DNA of 64,000 bases from Collinsella aerofaciens. GTDB lineage: Bacteria > Actinomycetota > Coriobacteriia > Coriobacteriales > Coriobacteriaceae. The stretch covers positions 124,987-188,986 of the forward strand of contig NZ_JADMWW010000001.1 of NCBI RefSeq assembly GCF_015548375.1, read 5' to 3'. The notes beneath the pieces are model-generated. The model searched no databases and was not told the DNA's origin. It was given only the letters and a program-made list of their open reading frames with translations. How positions within the stretch are numbered: the stretch's first letter is position 1; every line of letters begins with the position of its first letter. Both the position numbers and the translations under genes were made by a program. Shown here in pieces: positions 6,773 through 36,992 of this stretch.

Positions 6773-6784
6773 CCTAACCTGACC

Positions 6785-6909
6785 GGTTGCCCGGTGGGGC
6801 TTGGTTATGTTTGCTGCTCTACAGTCCTGGCTCGCACGAAGAGCACATTAAGTGCTCTTCGGCTCGTGCGGAACTCGCGACAAACATAACCAAGCCCCAC
6901 CGGGCAACC
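6785..6909 (+). repeat. family B 3'-end stem-loop element, copy 1
   Basis: Perfect 29-bp arms at 6785-6813 and 6881-6909 enclose a 67-base core. The core contains an inner hairpin (AAGAGCAC-ATTAA-GTGCTCTT) flanked by GTCCTG on the left and TGCGGAAC on the right. It starts 12 bases after the P1 peptidase stop codon and lies in the direction of transcription. Its core closely matches copy 2 read on the opposite strand, while the arms are unrelated in sequence. Confidence 0.8.
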
Positions 6910-6932
6910 TACCAACCAGATTCTTTTCAGCC

Positions 6933-6977: not shown

Positions 6978-7002
6978 ACTGACAATCGATTCTTATAGCA
7001 GA

Positions 7003-7112
7003 GGCCCCTTGGCCTTTAGTTTGATACAAGTTCCGCACGAGCCGAAAAGCACTTAATGTGCTTTCCGTGCGAGCAGGACTGTTCGCAGTAGCAAACTAAA
7101 GGCCAAGGGGCC
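7003..7112 (-). repeat. family B 3'-end stem-loop element, copy 2
   Basis: Perfect 21-bp arms at 7003-7023 and 7092-7112 surround a core that, on the minus strand, matches copy 1 nearly base for base (GTCCTGCTCGCACGG..., AGCACATTAAGTGCT, CGTGCGGAACTTG). It lies 33 bases after the stop codon of the leftward glycosyltransferase and is oriented with it. Confidence 0.8.
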
Positions 7113-7144
7113 CAGTCAACCTATCAGCAGCGATTACTCGGCAG

Positions 7145-10583: not shown

Positions 10584-10600
10584 CGGACATATCCCCTCGG

Positions 10601-10724
10601 GACCCTACAGGGTAAAGCTCTGAAAACGTCCTCGGACATGCATGAAACCCCCGCTGCGCAACTTCGTGCGGCGGGGGTTTCATGCGTCCTGCGGAATATT
10701 TTCAGAGCTTTACCCTGTAGGGTC
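10601..10724 (+). repeat. family B 3'-end stem-loop element, copy 3
   Basis: Perfect 26-bp arms at 10601-10626 and 10699-10724 enclose a core with its own 15-bp hairpin (GCATGAAACCCCCGC and its complement). The core starts with GTCCTCGG and ends with TGCGGAAT, which matches the edges of copies 1 and 2, but its inner helix is different. It begins 17 bases after the pta stop codon and is oriented with pta. Confidence 0.7.
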
Positions 10725-21630: not shown

Positions 21631-23577
21631 ATGAGTAAAACTCATCCCGTCAACGCGCTCAAGAAGCTTGGCATAGGCCTTGCATTTGGAGCTGCAACCA
21701 TCATGTCCATGCCGACATCTGCGCTCGCCTGCACGCAGATGTACATGGGCAACAAGCTGACGGCCGACGGTGACACGTACTATGGCCGCGCCGAGGACTT
21801 CGATAAGCGCTACCTCAAGCACTTTGGCATTGAGCCTTCTCACGGCCCGGGGCATACGTACGGCTCGGACGAGTCCGCATTCATGTATACCTCGACCAAG
21901 ACCACGTATCGCTACACCTATGTACGCGACCATCCCTCCCAGTGGCACGGGCGCTATGATGCCTACTCTGAGGCAGGCATCAATGAGAAGGGCGTGTCCT
22001 GCTCCGCAACGCTGACCACCGGCATGAATGCTGATGCTGAGGCAGCAGACCCCCTGACCAAAACCGGTATTGGCGAGTACAGCTACGGCAGCGTTATCTT
22101 AGGTGAAAGCGCCAATGCACGTGAGGGCGTCGAGCTCCTCGGCAAGATCATCGACGAGCAGGGCGCCTGCGGCAACGATCAGATTATCATCGCCGACAGC
22201 AACGAGACTTGGCTGTTTGCCGCACTTTCCGGCCACCAGTGGATCGCCATGAGGCTCACTGACGATATCGCCTCGCTCAACCCCAACATCGGCAACCTCA
22301 ACTACAAGGTTGACCTCACCGACACCGCGAACTGTCTCCACTCTGCGACCATCGAGTCCATGCCTAAGGAGAATGGCTTCGCCAAGTACTTCGATGACGG
22401 TCAATTTGACGTTGCCCAGACCTACGGCGAGGCAATTAGCGAAAAGGCCATGCATTCTTGGGCCCGTTATGTCCAGGGTCGCGCCTACTTCGGTGTGCCG
22501 CTCACCGAGGGCACCGACTACGAGATCGTCAAGGACGAGCGCGAAGATGCTCGTGCCACGACCGGCGCCCTGGTTAGCAAGGCGCAGCCGCTGTTCTTCC
22601 AGCCCGGCAAGTCCGACTGGAACACCTTTGAGATGATCCGCGCGTTTGGCAACCGCGGCGAGAAGGTCCCGGGCCTCAACGCCAACACCGACGGCGCCTA
22701 CGCCATTGGTACCGAAACCAACACCGAGGTCAATCTCTTCCAGATCCGTCAGGGCATGGACCCCGAGATCGCGACCATCCAGTGGGAGATGCTCTCCCGC
22801 GCCGCCTACTCCGTCGCCATCCCCTACTACTCCGCACTGCTCACCGAGGTTAGCCCGTACTACAGCGACCAGACCGTCTCCTTCGATCACTGCGAAGAGG
22901 AGGACATCGTGAACAACGAGGAGCCCGAGAACTCCATCAACTATGTCCTCATGGACATCAGCTCCCTGTGCTTCGAGCACCGTGAGCAGCTCGGCACCGG
23001 CGTTCGCACCTACCTCGACGCCCTCCAGAACGAGCTCGTCGAGCAGAACTTGGAAGTCGACGAGGTCATGCAGGCCACCGAGGGCACCGAGGCCCGTACC
23101 GCCCTGGCAAACAAGGCCGGCAATGCTGCCACCGAGAACACCTACGTCAAGTGCAAGGCCTTGCTCCAGGAGATGCGCGCCTATCTGAAGGCTGAGAACT
23201 TCGACCAGCCCTTCACCCCGAGCGACCTGAACACCGAGACCAACGGCCTCAAGGTGTCCATCACCTACGCCAAGGACGCTCTTGCCACCGACCCGGTAAC
23301 CCCGGATCAGCCTGGCACTCCCGAGCAGCCTGGTACTCCTGAGCAGCCCGGTACCCCCGAGCAGCCCGCTAAGCCCGAGCAGCCCACCACCAAGCCCGAG
23401 AAGCCTGGCAAGTCGGACACCACGACCACGGTAACCACCAACAAGGCGAACACCAAGGGCGGCCTGCCCACCACCGGTGATCGTTTTGATGGCCGCGTGG
23501 TGGCTGCATTCGCCATCGCTGGCGTTGCCGTCATCTCCGCGGGCGGTTACTTCCTCTACCGTCGCAATAAGGAGTAA
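21631..23577 (+). CDS. cell-wall-anchored C69-family dipeptidase
   Basis: A 648-residue secreted dipeptidase of the Ntn-hydrolase family C69 (PepD-like). The signal peptide ends SALA, directly before Cys34 (CTQMYMGNKL). In this family a Cys at the mature N-terminus is the nucleophile, so signal peptidase may itself generate the active enzyme. The catalytic domain runs to about residue 480. A helical region and a wall-spanning stretch of PGTPEQ repeats (about residues 565-605) follow, and the end is a sortase signal: LPTTG, a hydrophobic segment (VVAAFAIAGVAVISAGGYFL) and YRRNKE. GGGAGGG precedes ATG 21631. It probably digests host or dietary peptides at the surface. Confidence 0.93.
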   Translation: MSKTHPVNALKKLGIGLAFGAATIMSMPTSALACTQMYMGNKLTADGDTYYGRAEDFDKRYLKHFGIEPSHGPGHTYGSDESAFMYTSTKTTYRYTYVRDHPSQWHGRYDAYSEAGINEKGVSCSATLTTGMNADAEAADPLTKTGIGEYSYGSVILGESANAREGVELLGKIIDEQGACGNDQIIIADSNETWLFAALSGHQWIAMRLTDDIASLNPNIGNLNYKVDLTDTANCLHSATIESMPKENGFAKYFDDGQFDVAQTYGEAISEKAMHSWARYVQGRAYFGVPLTEGTDYEIVKDEREDARATTGALVSKAQPLFFQPGKSDWNTFEMIRAFGNRGEKVPGLNANTDGAYAIGTETNTEVNLFQIRQGMDPEIATIQWEMLSRAAYSVAIPYYSALLTEVSPYYSDQTVSFDHCEEEDIVNNEEPENSINYVLMDISSLCFEHREQLGTGVRTYLDALQNELVEQNLEVDEVMQATEGTEARTALANKAGNAATENTYVKCKALLQEMRAYLKAENFDQPFTPSDLNTETNGLKVSITYAKDALATDPVTPDQPGTPEQPGTPEQPGTPEQPAKPEQPTTKPEKPGKSDTTTTVTTNKANTKGGLPTTGDRFDGRVVAAFAIAGVAVISAGGYFLYRRNKE

Positions 23578-23678: not shown

Positions 23679-23763
23679 CCCGCACACACTTCGCTGTGCT
23701 ATAGTGCAGCGCAACAGCAACTAGGTGCGACCGCGCCACGGCATCACGAAAGGAGCCACCGAC

Positions 23764-23832
23764 ATGAAGAACACGATGAAGTCTCTCAACAACTGGTGGT
23801 GGCGTGATGCGAATACGATCGGTCGACAGTGA
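23764..23832 (+). CDS. tryptophan attenuator leader peptide (22 residues, Trp-Trp-Trp)
   Basis: AAAGGAG precedes ATG 23764; the peptide is MKNTMKSLNNWWWRDANTIG followed by RQ and a stop. The three consecutive TGG codons (23794-23802) are the mark of a ribosome-sensing trp leader. Downstream RNA offers the expected choice: a terminator at 23869-23899, and an antiterminator in which CGGTCGA (23820-23826) pairs with TCGACCG (23882-23888) in the terminator loop and 3' arm. A ribosome stalled at the Trp codons leaves CGGTCGA free; one at the stop codon covers it. The controlled gene is not a trp biosynthesis gene but an ECF transporter S component. Confidence 0.88.
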   Translation: MKNTMKSLNNWWWRDANTIGRQ

Positions 23833-23868
23833 GTCCCTCACGCCTGTTTTTGCGCTCTAGGTGATTGG

Positions 23869-23899
23869 AAGGCCTCCGGTTTCGACCGGGGGCCTTTTT
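23869..23899 (+). terminator. attenuator terminator of the trp leader
   Basis: AGGCCTCCGG and CCGGGGGCCT form the stem (one T-G pair) with loop TTTCGA, followed by TTTT. A second, weaker terminator-like stem, GGCGTGA (23801-23807) with TCACGCC (23838-23844) then TGTTTTT, lies upstream and includes bases immediately after the Trp codons. Confidence 0.85.
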
Positions 23900-23976
23900 C
23901 TATCTCGAGCCCGATCGCATTCGCATCACGCGCCTCCGCTTTTCTCTTGCACCCCCATTCCGAAAGGATTTTCACC

Positions 23977-24549
23977 ATGTCTCAGAACACCACCGCCGCC
24001 CAGCCCCGCACCGTCCAGACCGCCGACCGCGGCAAACTCGACGTCCGCGCTCTCGTCCTGCTCGCCATCCTGCTCGCTGCAGGCTTCATCCTCAACTTCA
24101 CCGTCGGCAAGGCCATCTCGGGCATCTCGGGCGGCATGATCAGCCCCGAGTTCATCATCTCGGCCTTCTGCCTCACCATCCTGGTCGTTCGCCCTAACAT
24201 CGGCCAAGCGCTCGTCATCGGCCTCATCTCGGCTGCCGTGATCCAGATCACCACCACTTCGCCGTTCGTCGATTTTGCCGCCGAGGGCATCGCCGCCATG
24301 CTCATGGCCGGCATCGTCAACGCCGCCGGCAAGAACGGTCAGGTCAAGCCTGCCGTCGCCATTGTTGCAACCTTCCTGACCACCTTTGTCTCCGGCGTCA
24401 TCTTCATGGTCATCAAGATGGCCATGCTCGGCGTGGTAGGCGAGCTCGCCGCCGCCATGTTGCCCGTCGTCGCCATGACCGCCGTCTTTAACGCCATTCT
24501 GGTCGGCGCCCTCTACCTGCCCATCCAGAAGGCCCTTAGGCTCAACTAA
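23977..24549 (+). CDS. ECF transporter S component, probably tryptophan-specific
   Basis: A 190-residue membrane protein with about six hydrophobic segments after a hydrophilic N-terminus, in keeping with an ECF substrate-binding S component related to TrpP-type proteins. AAAGGA precedes ATG 23977. Specificity for tryptophan is inferred from the Trp-codon attenuator just upstream, which is the strongest functional evidence here. The dedicated ATPase and T component genes follow, so this is a group I-like ECF unit. A family A stem-loop element separates it from the ATPase gene. Confidence 0.82.
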   Translation: MSQNTTAAQPRTVQTADRGKLDVRALVLLAILLAAGFILNFTVGKAISGISGGMISPEFIISAFCLTILVVRPNIGQALVIGLISAAVIQITTTSPFVDFAAEGIAAMLMAGIVNAAGKNGQVKPAVAIVATFLTTFVSGVIFMVIKMAMLGVVGELAAAMLPVVAMTAVFNAILVGALYLPIQKALRLN

Positions 24550-24762: not shown

Positions 24763-26514
24763 ATGGAAACGATCATCAACGTCGACGATGTCTCGTTCTC
24801 CTATGGCACGCAGACCGAGCAGGCGCTCAGCCACATCTCGCTCAGCGTGAACAAGGGAGATTTCATCGGCATCATCGGGCCCTCGGGCGCCGGCAAGTCC
24901 ACGCTTGCCGCCTGCCTGTCGGGTGCCGTGCCCCACCACTACACCGGCACGTTCTTTGGGTCCGTCATGGTCGACGGCCACGACACCTGCGAAGTCTCGC
25001 TCACCGACGTCTCGCAAATCGTCGGCAGTGTGCTGCAGGATATCGACACGCAGATGGTCGCTTCGGTCGTCGAGGACGAGATGCTCTTTGGCCTCGAGAA
25101 CTTTGGCGTTCCCCACGACCAGATCGAGCAGCGCGTGAGCGAAACGCTCGAGACCGTCGGCATCAGCGACCTGCGCGACCGCGAGATCGCCACCCTCTCG
25201 GGCGGACAGAAGCAAAAAGTGGCCATCGCCGCCATCCTCGCCATGCGTCCGCGCGTCTTGGTTCTCGACGAGCCCACCGCGGCACTCGACCCCGCCAGCT
25301 CCACGCTGGTTTTCGAGACCCTGCGTGAGGCCAACCGTGCACTCGGCATCACCATCGTCGTCGTTGAGCAAAAGGTCGCCCTGCTTTCGGAGTACTGCAA
25401 CCGCGTGCTCGTGCTCAATCATGGCGAAATCGCGCTGCAGGGCGAGCCACACGAGGTCTTCGCGCATACCGACGAGCTCCGTGCCATCGGCGTCGACTGC
25501 CCTCGCGTCACGCGTATCTTCAATAGCCTCCAGGCCGATGGCCTGGTAAGCGGCACCCCCTGCTTGGATGTCGATGAGGCCGAGCGCCTGATTTCGGGCA
25601 TCGTCGACCCCGCACACGCGGCTATCGAAGCCCAGGCGCCCGCCGGTTCCCCGCATGCACCGTCGTTGCGTCCTCATGCCAAGGACGCCGAACCCGTACT
25701 CACCTTCGACCATGTTGAGTTTGCCTATCCCAATGGCGGAGCCGCCGTACACGACCTTAGCCTGACGCTCTATCCTGGCGAGCTCGTGGGCATCGTCGGC
25801 CAAAACGGCGCCGGCAAGACCACGCTCACCAAACTGCTCACAGGCCTGCTTAAGCCCGCCTCGGGCAGCGTGCGCGTCACGGGACTGGATACCGCAGCCG
25901 TTCCCACGAGCCGCATCGCTCGCGAGGTCGCGACCCTCTTCCAAAACCCCGACCGCCAGATCTGCAAGGACACCGTGCTCGACGAGGTCGCCTTTGGCTT
26001 GGAGCTTGGCGGCATGGACCGTGCCGAGGCTCTGCGTCGTGCCCAACTCGTCATCGACCGCTTTGGCTTGCCGGCCGACGAGGCGCCCTTCTCGCTCTCG
26101 CGCGGTCAGCGACAAATGGTGGCGCTTGCCTCCGTCGTAGTGGTTGAGCCCAAGATCGTCGTGCTCGACGAGCCCACGAGCGGCCTTGATTACCGCGAGT
26201 GCATGACCGTCATGGAAACGGTGCGCACCATGGCCGAGCGCGGTTGCGCCGTTATCATGGTTTGCCACGATATGGAAGTCGTCTCGGATTTTGCCGAGCG
26301 CATTGTGGTAATGGCCGACGGTCGCATCCTCGACCGCGGCCGCACGCACGAGCTATTCTCGAACATCGATCTCATGCGGCGTGCCTACGTGGAGCCTCCC
26401 CAGGTTATTGAACTCTCGCGCCGTCTGGCATCTTCCGTCTCGCCCGCTTTTGCGCAGGTGAGCGAGGTCACCGATGTCGTTCGAATTACCAAGGAGATGG
26501 TCCACCGTGGTTAA
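24763..26514 (+). CDS. ECF transporter fused A1-A2 ATPase
   Basis: A 583-residue protein with two complete ABC ATPase domains. Domain 1 has GPSGAGKST (Walker A), LSGGQKQKVAIA (signature) and VLVLDEPTAALD (Walker B). Domain 2, after a linker around residue 300, has GQNGAGKTT, LSRGQRQMVALA (signature with Ser-Arg-Gly) and IVVLDEPTSGLD. It energises the S and T components. GAAAGG precedes ATG 24763. The stop codon overlaps the T component start (GTGGTTAA), so the two are translationally coupled. Confidence 0.93.
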   Translation: METIINVDDVSFSYGTQTEQALSHISLSVNKGDFIGIIGPSGAGKSTLAACLSGAVPHHYTGTFFGSVMVDGHDTCEVSLTDVSQIVGSVLQDIDTQMVASVVEDEMLFGLENFGVPHDQIEQRVSETLETVGISDLRDREIATLSGGQKQKVAIAAILAMRPRVLVLDEPTAALDPASSTLVFETLREANRALGITIVVVEQKVALLSEYCNRVLVLNHGEIALQGEPHEVFAHTDELRAIGVDCPRVTRIFNSLQADGLVSGTPCLDVDEAERLISGIVDPAHAAIEAQAPAGSPHAPSLRPHAKDAEPVLTFDHVEFAYPNGGAAVHDLSLTLYPGELVGIVGQNGAGKTTLTKLLTGLLKPASGSVRVTGLDTAAVPTSRIAREVATLFQNPDRQICKDTVLDEVAFGLELGGMDRAEALRRAQLVIDRFGLPADEAPFSLSRGQRQMVALASVVVVEPKIVVLDEPTSGLDYRECMTVMETVRTMAERGCAVIMVCHDMEVVSDFAERIVVMADGRILDRGRTHELFSNIDLMRRAYVEPPQVIELSRRLASSVSPAFAQVSEVTDVVRITKEMVHRG

Positions 26515-27253
26515 CGTCATCGACTACATGCCGGGCGATACGCTACTGCATCGCCTGAACCCCGTCGTCAAACTGGGCCTCGCCGCCGCCATCATCGTCG
26601 GCATCTTCTTGTCCGACACCTACGTGGCGCTGTTGGGCTTTTTGGCACTCACCCTTGCGCTGGGTGCCTATGCCGGTGTCATCGACCGTCTGCTCTCGCT
26701 GCTCAAGTTGCTGATTCCGCTCGCGCTTATCATGCTGGTGCTCCAGCTGGCCTTTATGCGCGATGGCAACGTGGTGTGGAACTTTATCACCGACACGGGT
26801 CTCATCACAGGATCGAAGGCCTGCCTGCGCCTGCTGGGCGTGGCGTTACCACTCATCCTCATGCTCATGGTGACCAAGCTCAACGACCTTGCCAACGCCT
26901 GCGTCGAGGTGCTGCACGTGCCGTATCGCTATGCCTTCACCTTTACCACGGCGCTGCGCTTTGTGCCGGTGTTTGGTCAGGAGATGAACGCCATCATGGA
27001 GGCGCAGACCGCACGCGGCGTCGAGTACGACACCAAGAACCCCATCAAGAAGCTTAAGCTCATGCTGCCACTGTGTGTGCCACTGCTCATCTCGAGCGTG
27101 GGCAAGACCGATGCCACAGCCTTGGCGGCAGAACAGCGCGGCTTCTATCTGCGTACGCGCGCCAGCTCGTACAAGCGCTACCCCATCAAGGGCCTGGACA
27201 TCGCCGTACTCATCGTCAGCATCGCCCTCATCGCCATCGGCTTCCTGTTCTAG
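26507..27253 (+). CDS. ecfT: ECF transporter T component
   Basis: A 248-residue membrane protein (EcfT/CbiQ family) that couples ATP hydrolysis to the S component. It has several hydrophobic segments and the two coupling-helix signatures: AQTARGVEYDTKNPIKKLK (with the A-R-G) and AEQRGFYLRTRAS. AAGGAG stands before GTG 26507, which overlaps the ATPase stop codon. A strong terminator follows, closing the operon. Confidence 0.92.
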   Translation: MVNVIDYMPGDTLLHRLNPVVKLGLAAAIIVGIFLSDTYVALLGFLALTLALGAYAGVIDRLLSLLKLLIPLALIMLVLQLAFMRDGNVVWNFITDTGLITGSKACLRLLGVALPLILMLMVTKLNDLANACVEVLHVPYRYAFTFTTALRFVPVFGQEMNAIMEAQTARGVEYDTKNPIKKLKLMLPLCVPLLISSVGKTDATALAAEQRGFYLRTRASSYKRYPIKGLDIAVLIVSIALIAIGFLF

Positions 27254-36753: not shown

Positions 36754-36763
36754 CTTTACCACT

Positions 36764-36922
36764 TGATAGAGGCGCGGGCACGAAGAGCCGCGGGCGAGTC
36801 GGCAGACTTTGACCCTGCGGGGAGGCGAAACCCGCCGAACTGGGCATTTCGGGCACGAACAGCCTGGTGGGCCTGCGGGAAACACCCGCAGGACTGTCTG
36901 CAGCAATGCGGGAGCGCTATCC
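36764..36922 (+). promoter_or_regulatory. lysine riboswitch (L box)
   Basis: Hallmarks in order: TGATAGAGGCGCG (P1 and loop E-like motif), GACTTTGACC and GGGGAGGCG, CGCCGAACTGG, CTGGTGGGCCTGCGGG, GGACTGTC, and the closing GGAGCGCTATCC whose CTATC pairs with the first GATAG to close P1. The layout matches the Bacillus lysC leader element by element. No T-rich terminator follows. The P1 3' strand CGCTATCC (36915-36922) is complementary to GGATAGCG (36972-36979), which overlaps the lysA ribosome site, so control is probably at translation. Confidence 0.9.
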
Positions 36923-36992
36923 GGACATTGGGTCCACGTTATGCGGATTCGATGCGCAGATGGCGCCGTCTGGATAGCGAGGTTTACGGGAC

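Follow-up and report, generated by a model that had tools for sequence, protein, structure and literature searches.

In textbook attenuation the matter is over once RNA polymerase has passed the terminator. A tryptophan leader of Collinsella aerofaciens raises the question of whether this is always so, since a stretch just after its Trp codons is complementary to a segment that lies beyond the terminator, and we asked whether this long-range pairing is a real RNA structure and what it could do. The locus lies in a 64,000-nucleotide stretch of contig NZ_JADMWW010000001.1 (the window), and all coordinates given here are window positions.

A tryptophan attenuator ahead of an ECF importer

The leader contains the following elements, and transcription would start at about 23712.

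23700-23705, + strand: probable -10 element TATAGT with TGTGC just before it, from reading the sequence; TGTGCTATAGTGCA is seen again in several related loci
23749-23755, + strand: Shine-Dalgarno sequence of the leader ORF, AAAGGAG; this or a near variant occurs in nearly all loci listed
23764-23832, + strand: leader ORF encoding MKNTMKSLNNWWWRDANTIGRQ, with the stop codon TGA at 23830-23832
23794-23802, + strand: the sensor, three Trp codons in tandem, probably also the outer part of the long helix, facing 23932-23938
23820-23826, + strand: antiterminator strand CGGUCGA, within the last leader codons, partner 23882-23888
23838-23844, + strand: region 2, UCACGCC, alternative partner for 23801-23807
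23871-23899, + strand: intrinsic terminator (stem 23871-23880/23885-23894, U-run 23895-23899), from conservation and folding

Judged by its sequence, the locus is a ribosome-mediated leader-peptide attenuator of a TrpP-like ECF tryptophan importer, in agreement with the earlier note on this DNA, which had called it a Trp-codon attenuator. Tandem Trp codons, an intrinsic terminator and an antiterminator that excludes the terminator are all present and conserved. Among 40 distinct leaders of the genus the terminator is paired in 99.3% of cells, and the same value is reached by the antiterminator 23820-23826/23882-23888, the best-conserved option, in which four of the seven pairs are invariant and the few changes keep the pairing. 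Its partner segment consists of the terminator loop and 3' stem, so that antiterminator and terminator overlap, and the position of the antiterminator suggests that it would be available during a ribosome stall. The classical 1:2 pairing (23801-23807/23838-23844) is formed in 91.4% of cells in these 40 leaders with little covariation, both-sided changes being confined to one pair.

The geometry of the leader is tightly kept, with exactly 39 nt from the first Trp codon to the stop in 101 of 102 loci parsed across the order. A Trp leader is present in all 43 genomes of the genus, with three Trp codons in 42 of them and two in G046. The leader matches no Rfam family above the gathering score, the only match in the window being a lysine riboswitch aptamer (RF00168, 73.3 bits) at 36759-36927, and a search of the genome found no second copy of the leader. 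As a separate observation, the leader Shine-Dalgarno region 23749-23762 (GGAGCCACC) can pair with the Trp codons (23794-23810) in terminated RNA; in the sister family described below the counterparts of these two segments differ on both sides.

Downstream of the leader lie the genes of the importer.

23962-23968, + strand: trpP Shine-Dalgarno sequence GAAAGGA, from the sequence
23977-24549, + strand: TrpP-like tryptophan ECF S component, 190 aa (Pfam PF17099 TrpP, E 2.2e-5)
24763-26514, + strand: fused double ECF ATPase (NCBIfam TIGR04520, 457.9 bits, in two stretches)
26474-27253, + strand: ECF transmembrane (T) component (Pfam PF02361 CbiQ, 93 bits)

The match of the S component to PF17099 scores 24.8 bits, just under the curated cut-off of 27.2, and an NCBIfam search with this protein gave no match. 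Since TrpA is missing from 39 of 42 genomes of the genus (it is present in 14 of 14 control genomes), uptake is probably the main source of tryptophan in those 39. A second, more divergent TrpP-like gene follows directly 3' of the first in G016, G021, G022, G012, G055 and other relatives.

A long-range helix across the terminator

The complementarity between 23803-23822 (CGTGATGCGAATACGATCGG) and 23911-23930, put at 19 of 20 positions by the earlier note, is exact, the sole mismatch being A23814 opposite C23919. The additional pair G23802-C23931 extends it to 20 of 21.

23802-23822, + strand: 5' arm of the long helix, conserved core 23802-23812
23911-23931, + strand: 3' arm of the long helix, conserved core 23921-23931
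23932-23937, + strand: conserved GCCUCC directly 3' of the 3' arm, which can pair with the Trp codons

It is the best 20-base inverted repeat in 23712-24000, and the best found in 300 dinucleotide shuffles reached 16 of 20. With loops of 60-139 bases and a match of 19 of 20 or better, the 64 kb of the window contain four such pairs of arms, and the three besides this one are long intergenic palindromes.

Distribution among relatives

All 43 searchable species of the genus have the locus, and the leader pattern was found in 43 stretches from named genomes, nearly all of them Collinsella; the rest include Enorma and one Slackia. In the contiguous-helix test, a helix had to start at the third Trp codon and have an energy below -12; locus G092 could not be parsed and was dropped from the set, and G108 and G154 were excluded for their short tails. 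Of the 63 loci in the window's family (f1, which we take to be the Coriobacteriaceae), 58 have a contiguous helix from the third Trp codon to past the terminator, and 57 reach p < 0.05 against shuffled tails. In G204 the test picked a match other than the homologous arm, the latter having an A-C mismatch. Where present, the helix always starts at the last base of the third Trp codon, and core helices have 8-14 contiguous pairs. The global duplex energies, a test that the contiguous-helix test superseded (genus tails limited to 130 bases), gave a weak signal against shuffled tails, since a long C-rich tail finds many places to pair with a G-rich arm.

The sister family f5, presumably the Atopobiaceae, has the same attenuator, yet a helix below the energy threshold was seen in only one of its 36 loci, and that helix has 6 pairs. 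The earlier note had taken the loss of one arm in relatives that keep the attenuator as a sign against the pairing, and here the outcome was mixed: the 58 family loci keep both arms, whereas the 3' arm is lost in five members (G005, G014, G019, G046 and G210, without helix in the contiguous-helix test) and the sister family is without the helix. Since these five members and the sister family retain the attenuator, the helix is a lineage-specific addition to it rather than something all attenuators of this kind require. The 3' arm lies 0-83 nt past the terminator and 24-128 nt ahead of the trpP start, a spread that argues against a precise effect on translation. One Slackia-type genome (G320, locus L139) has the Collinsella-family importer, leader and long helix, a regulated unit that was probably gained by horizontal transfer.

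Covariation in both arms

Compensatory changes across related genomes, the check proposed in the earlier note, were found in both arms in the genus and family alignments and on the trpP tree. In a structure-blind MAFFT alignment of the 40 distinct genus leaders (core 23802-23812 with 23921-23931), four core columns have both-sided changes, and ten of the eleven core pairs are formed in at least 34 of about 39 lettered rows, the innermost in 27 of 38. Examples include GCGU/ACGC becoming GCGC/GCGC in G020, G055 and G057, GCAUGACGCG paired with CGCGUCAUGC in G050, GCAUGGCGCG with the same partner in G054, and a terminal A-U pair replaced by U-A in G044.

The family alignment A2 (43 Coriobacteriaceae leaders plus G320 from another family) extends this, with both-sided changes in nine of the eleven inner columns and in 38 cells compared with 14.8 expected, a value that none of 500 shuffles reached. 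Sliding the register by 1-3 columns lowers the paired cells from 87% to 26-55%, and the 3' arms of G050, G212 and G214 were misplaced by MAFFT, which counts against the helix. On the trpP tree, which is short, partly unresolved and likely affected by gene transfer in places, at least nine Watson-Crick exchanges fall in core pairs 3-10 and a further ten in pairs 11-14; the register for this count was picked by pairing and leans towards the helix, a bias of which the genus and A2 alignments are free. The trees were built without G052, G055 and G210, the first tree also without G020, and the exchange count was made without G204.

In the genus g17 the whole inner helix (GCGTGGTTCTCGTC) and its partner have been replaced together, giving 14 contiguous pairs. 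Pairing is stronger between cognate arms than after swapping (mean -22.1 vs -17.1 kcal/mol, permutation p 5e-5, with kinship ignored). Unsupervised mutual information on alignment A1 was dominated by gappy columns, and although the well-filled column pair 36-190, a helix pair, stood out, it was not used as evidence. With covariation tests that are partly corrected for kinship, the comparative data indicate that the long helix is a real, covarying RNA structure.

The pairing can extend further, as GCCUCC at 23932-23937 may lengthen it onto the Trp codons, with G23801 bulged and one U-U mismatch. GCCTCC follows the 3' arm in 42 of the 58 helix-bearing family loci and also in g17 despite its changed arm, duplex prediction pairs it with the Trp codons, and A2 shows each of these pairs in 38 to 42 rows out of 42 or 43, U23800 being faced by G or A in 41 of 43. 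The Trp codons thus probably belong to the long helix, with the proviso that they are invariable, so that covariation cannot prove their pairs.

The helix core spares the antiterminator strand and would exclude a stalled ribosome

As the partner segment lies past the terminator, the helix is restricted to read-through RNA, and the expectation that it would form only in full-length transcripts was borne out. A proposed competition with the antiterminator strand was not: the core 23802-23812/23921-23931 leaves 23820-23826 untouched and can nest outside antiterminator or terminator alike. Overlap is limited to the three outermost pairs (23820-23822), and this outer part of the helix is unconserved beyond the window's close relatives.

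The core is instead incompatible with the leader pairings of 23801-23807 with 23838-23844 and with the 5' UTR, and with a ribosome on the Trp codons. It occupies the position that a ribosome would take when stalled on these codons, so that helix and stalled ribosome are mutually exclusive. An ordinary ribosome footprint extends about 15 nt downstream of the P site, and on this basis a ribosome whose A site holds any one of the three Trp codons would cover the core and spare the antiterminator strand. The long helix would therefore mark read-through RNA without a stalled ribosome.

In folding predictions the helix exceeds a probability of 0.5 in 51 out of 56 family loci, and in the window's own RNA a mask standing for the stalled ribosome abolishes it. 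The stretch after the Trp codons is predicted to change partners, from the 5' UTR or region 2 in terminated RNA to the tail in read-through RNA, where the tail accounts for a mean of 0.85 of its pairing in 63 family loci compared with 0.09 in 37 loci of the sister family.

The earlier suggestion of translational control, taken as concealment of the trpP ribosome-binding site, gained no support from folds with and without the ribosome mask: the helix is accompanied by a slight opening of the site (mean +0.056), seen in 43 of 53 loci. A translation attenuator of the ermC/tlrB type was rejected, as the predicted helix leaves the trpP Shine-Dalgarno site uncovered in these 53 loci. Nor did accessibility of the leader Shine-Dalgarno sequence change consistently with the helix, being greater in 22 and smaller in 9 of 63 loci. 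We also rejected the idea that the helix offsets weak terminators. It would account for the sister family (-26.5 kcal/mol without a helix), yet it fails in the five helix-less family members, whose terminators are slightly weaker than those of the others (-21.7 vs -23.5 kcal/mol, n = 5 and 58).

Possible roles of the helix

The reading we lean towards, while giving it somewhat less than an even chance, is a leader attenuator to which a second, fail-safe switch acting on read-through RNA alone was added in the Coriobacteriaceae. Under tryptophan shortage, the ribosome that stalls on the Trp codons would cover 23802-23812 and leave 23820-23826 free, so that polymerase would read through and the long helix would be blocked. 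When tryptophan suffices, most transcripts would terminate; on those that leak through the leader ribosome would be gone, and the helix would close and tag the mRNA as unneeded. The closed helix might then lower trpP expression, either because the 5' end with its duplex is cleaved or decays or because ribosomes load poorly, and one ribosome signal would be used twice, on transcription and then on the finished mRNA. Since in starved cells the ribosome would hold the helix open, its natural sign is repression of leaked mRNA at sufficient tryptophan; that the repressing step is decay or cleavage is our guess.

For this we count the covariation, the replacement in g17, the energies of cognate arms, the fixed start of the helix, the folding, the absence of TrpA and the precedent of tlrB (see below). 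Against it, the models leave the trpP ribosome-binding site exposed and put no repression step at hand, the core of 8-14 contiguous pairs is short for a typical RNase III target, and terminator strength does not track helix loss. The support is comparative or thermodynamic, and the sign and mechanism given here are proposals.

The main rival, nearly as good an account though in our view rather unlikely, holds that the helix locks the read-through state: it would stabilise the antiterminated mRNA, shield the 5' region from exonucleases and shut the leader ORF so that ribosomes stop stalling there. The nested, compatible arrangement of core helix and antiterminator suits this, as do the slight opening of the trpP ribosome-binding site and the shift of the stretch after the Trp codons, in read-through RNA, from its leader partners to the 3' arm (the mean of 0.85 given above, n = 63). 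It is at odds with the situation in starvation, when expression is wanted and yet ribosomes on the Trp codons would keep the helix open; moreover a terminator hairpin that forms behind the polymerase requires no lock, and the accessibility of the leader Shine-Dalgarno sequence shifts inconsistently.

Less probable by a good way is a joint action of the helix with a zone of Rho-dependent termination between terminator and trpP. The 50 nt ahead of the trpP ribosome-binding site (23915-23964) are rich in C and poor in G (0.44 and 0.14), compared with 0.26 and 0.29 in 39 other upstream stretches of the window, among which the largest excess of C over G is 0.14; tails average C 0.44 and G 0.18 in the family, and C 0.36 and G 0.22 in the sister family. 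The sign expected on simple grounds is the wrong one, however, since it is in tryptophan-rich cells that the helix would mask part of the C-rich zone and in starvation that this part would be freed, and the C-richness may merely keep the stretch unstructured.

We consider it more doubtful still that terminated leader RNA acts in trans, by binding the 3' arm of a trpP mRNA whose 5' arm sits under a stalled ribosome. Covariation is blind to cis and trans, and the terminated trp leader rnTrpL of Sinorhizobium meliloti is described as destabilising trpDC mRNA in trans (PMC7298713). The full complement of the leader arm occurs once in the genome, within the trpP mRNA, so that a genome-wide search for trans targets returned the cis site alone; allowing two mismatches, eight other places matched, one of them the leader arm's own complement, compared with three for a reversed-pattern control. 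Pairing in cis has a large kinetic advantage, and terminated RNA folds its own arm onto the 5' UTR or region 2.

That the complementarity has no function of its own, and reflects chance, shared ancestry or a DNA inverted repeat read by a protein, is very improbable: the window's close relatives are nearly identical here and the 3' arm is gone in 5 of 63 family members, but compensatory change recurs amid free sequence drift, the whole helix was replaced in g17, the non-coding 3' arm tracks synonymous and non-synonymous leader changes alike, and a protein site would conserve sequence rather than complementarity.

Relation to known systems

In the trp leader of Bacillus subtilis, work by Du and Babitzke from 1998 is said to have found that long-distance refolding controls trpE translation. 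That system shares with the Collinsella-type locus a long-range refolding element in read-through trp transcripts, and differs in being sensed by the protein TRAP rather than by the ribosome. The TRAP class is defined by repeated GAG/UAG triplets bound by TRAP, in contrast to the Trp-codon leader peptide found here.

Ribosome-mediated attenuators of trp operons combine a leader peptide with tandem Trp codons, an intrinsic terminator and an antiterminator alternative, and those of Corynebacterium and Streptomyces are covered by a 2005 survey of attenuators in Actinobacteria (PMC1262725). The Collinsella locus shares tandem Trp codons, terminator and antiterminator with these and with the attenuators of enteric bacteria. 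It differs in controlling an ECF importer, in carrying the antiterminator strand inside the last leader codons, and in adding a covarying helix to a segment past the terminator; in the part of the survey on Corynebacterium and Streptomyces, no partner past the terminator is described (PMC1262725).

Closer in logic is tlrB (yxjB) of B. subtilis, which also joins a leader peptide to transcription attenuation and in which read-through transcripts face a second repression that is relieved by the ribosome (PMC6851288), a precedent for the fail-safe logic. There a hairpin covers the Shine-Dalgarno sequence and tylosin is the signal, whereas the ribosome-binding site of the Collinsella-type locus is left uncovered in the predicted folds. 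With rnTrpL (PMC7298713) the locus shares a terminated trp leader with a possible role beyond termination in cis, but rnTrpL works in trans on another operon, while the full complement found here lies only in cis.

A literature search largely confined to open-licence papers (subscription journals lay mostly outside its scope) turned up neither a trp attenuator in Collinsella nor a helix across an attenuator terminator. Tentatively, and again at rather under an even chance, the locus would represent a previously undescribed two-stage attenuator, in which a stalled ribosome gates both transcription and the fate of the mRNA through a helix that crosses the terminator, sequesters the Trp codons and leaves the downstream ribosome-binding site untouched, possibly with the terminated leader acting in trans on the same 3' arm.

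Here selection has time and again rebuilt a helix that is possible only after the terminator and would be excluded by a ribosome on the sensor codons. If the helix acts, one RNA would make use of its sensor twice. This would account for a control tighter than termination by itself can give, and it would make the sequence past attenuator terminators worth searching for partners. Because most members of the genus lack the alpha subunit of tryptophan synthase, the switch probably governs a main route of tryptophan supply in abundant gut bacteria.

Other features of the window

The three intergenic palindromes mentioned above lie at 6780-6912, 7000-7113 and 10597-10723, each with arms of about 25 nt or more flanking an inner hairpin, and the inner hairpins of the first two are related to each other. 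They are possibly bidirectional terminators or members of a repeat family. Upstream of the leader, 21631-23577 encodes a peptidase family C69 protein that has an LPTTG-like sorting signal and, at its C terminus, a membrane anchor. Judged by this motif, it is probably a sortase-anchored surface protein.
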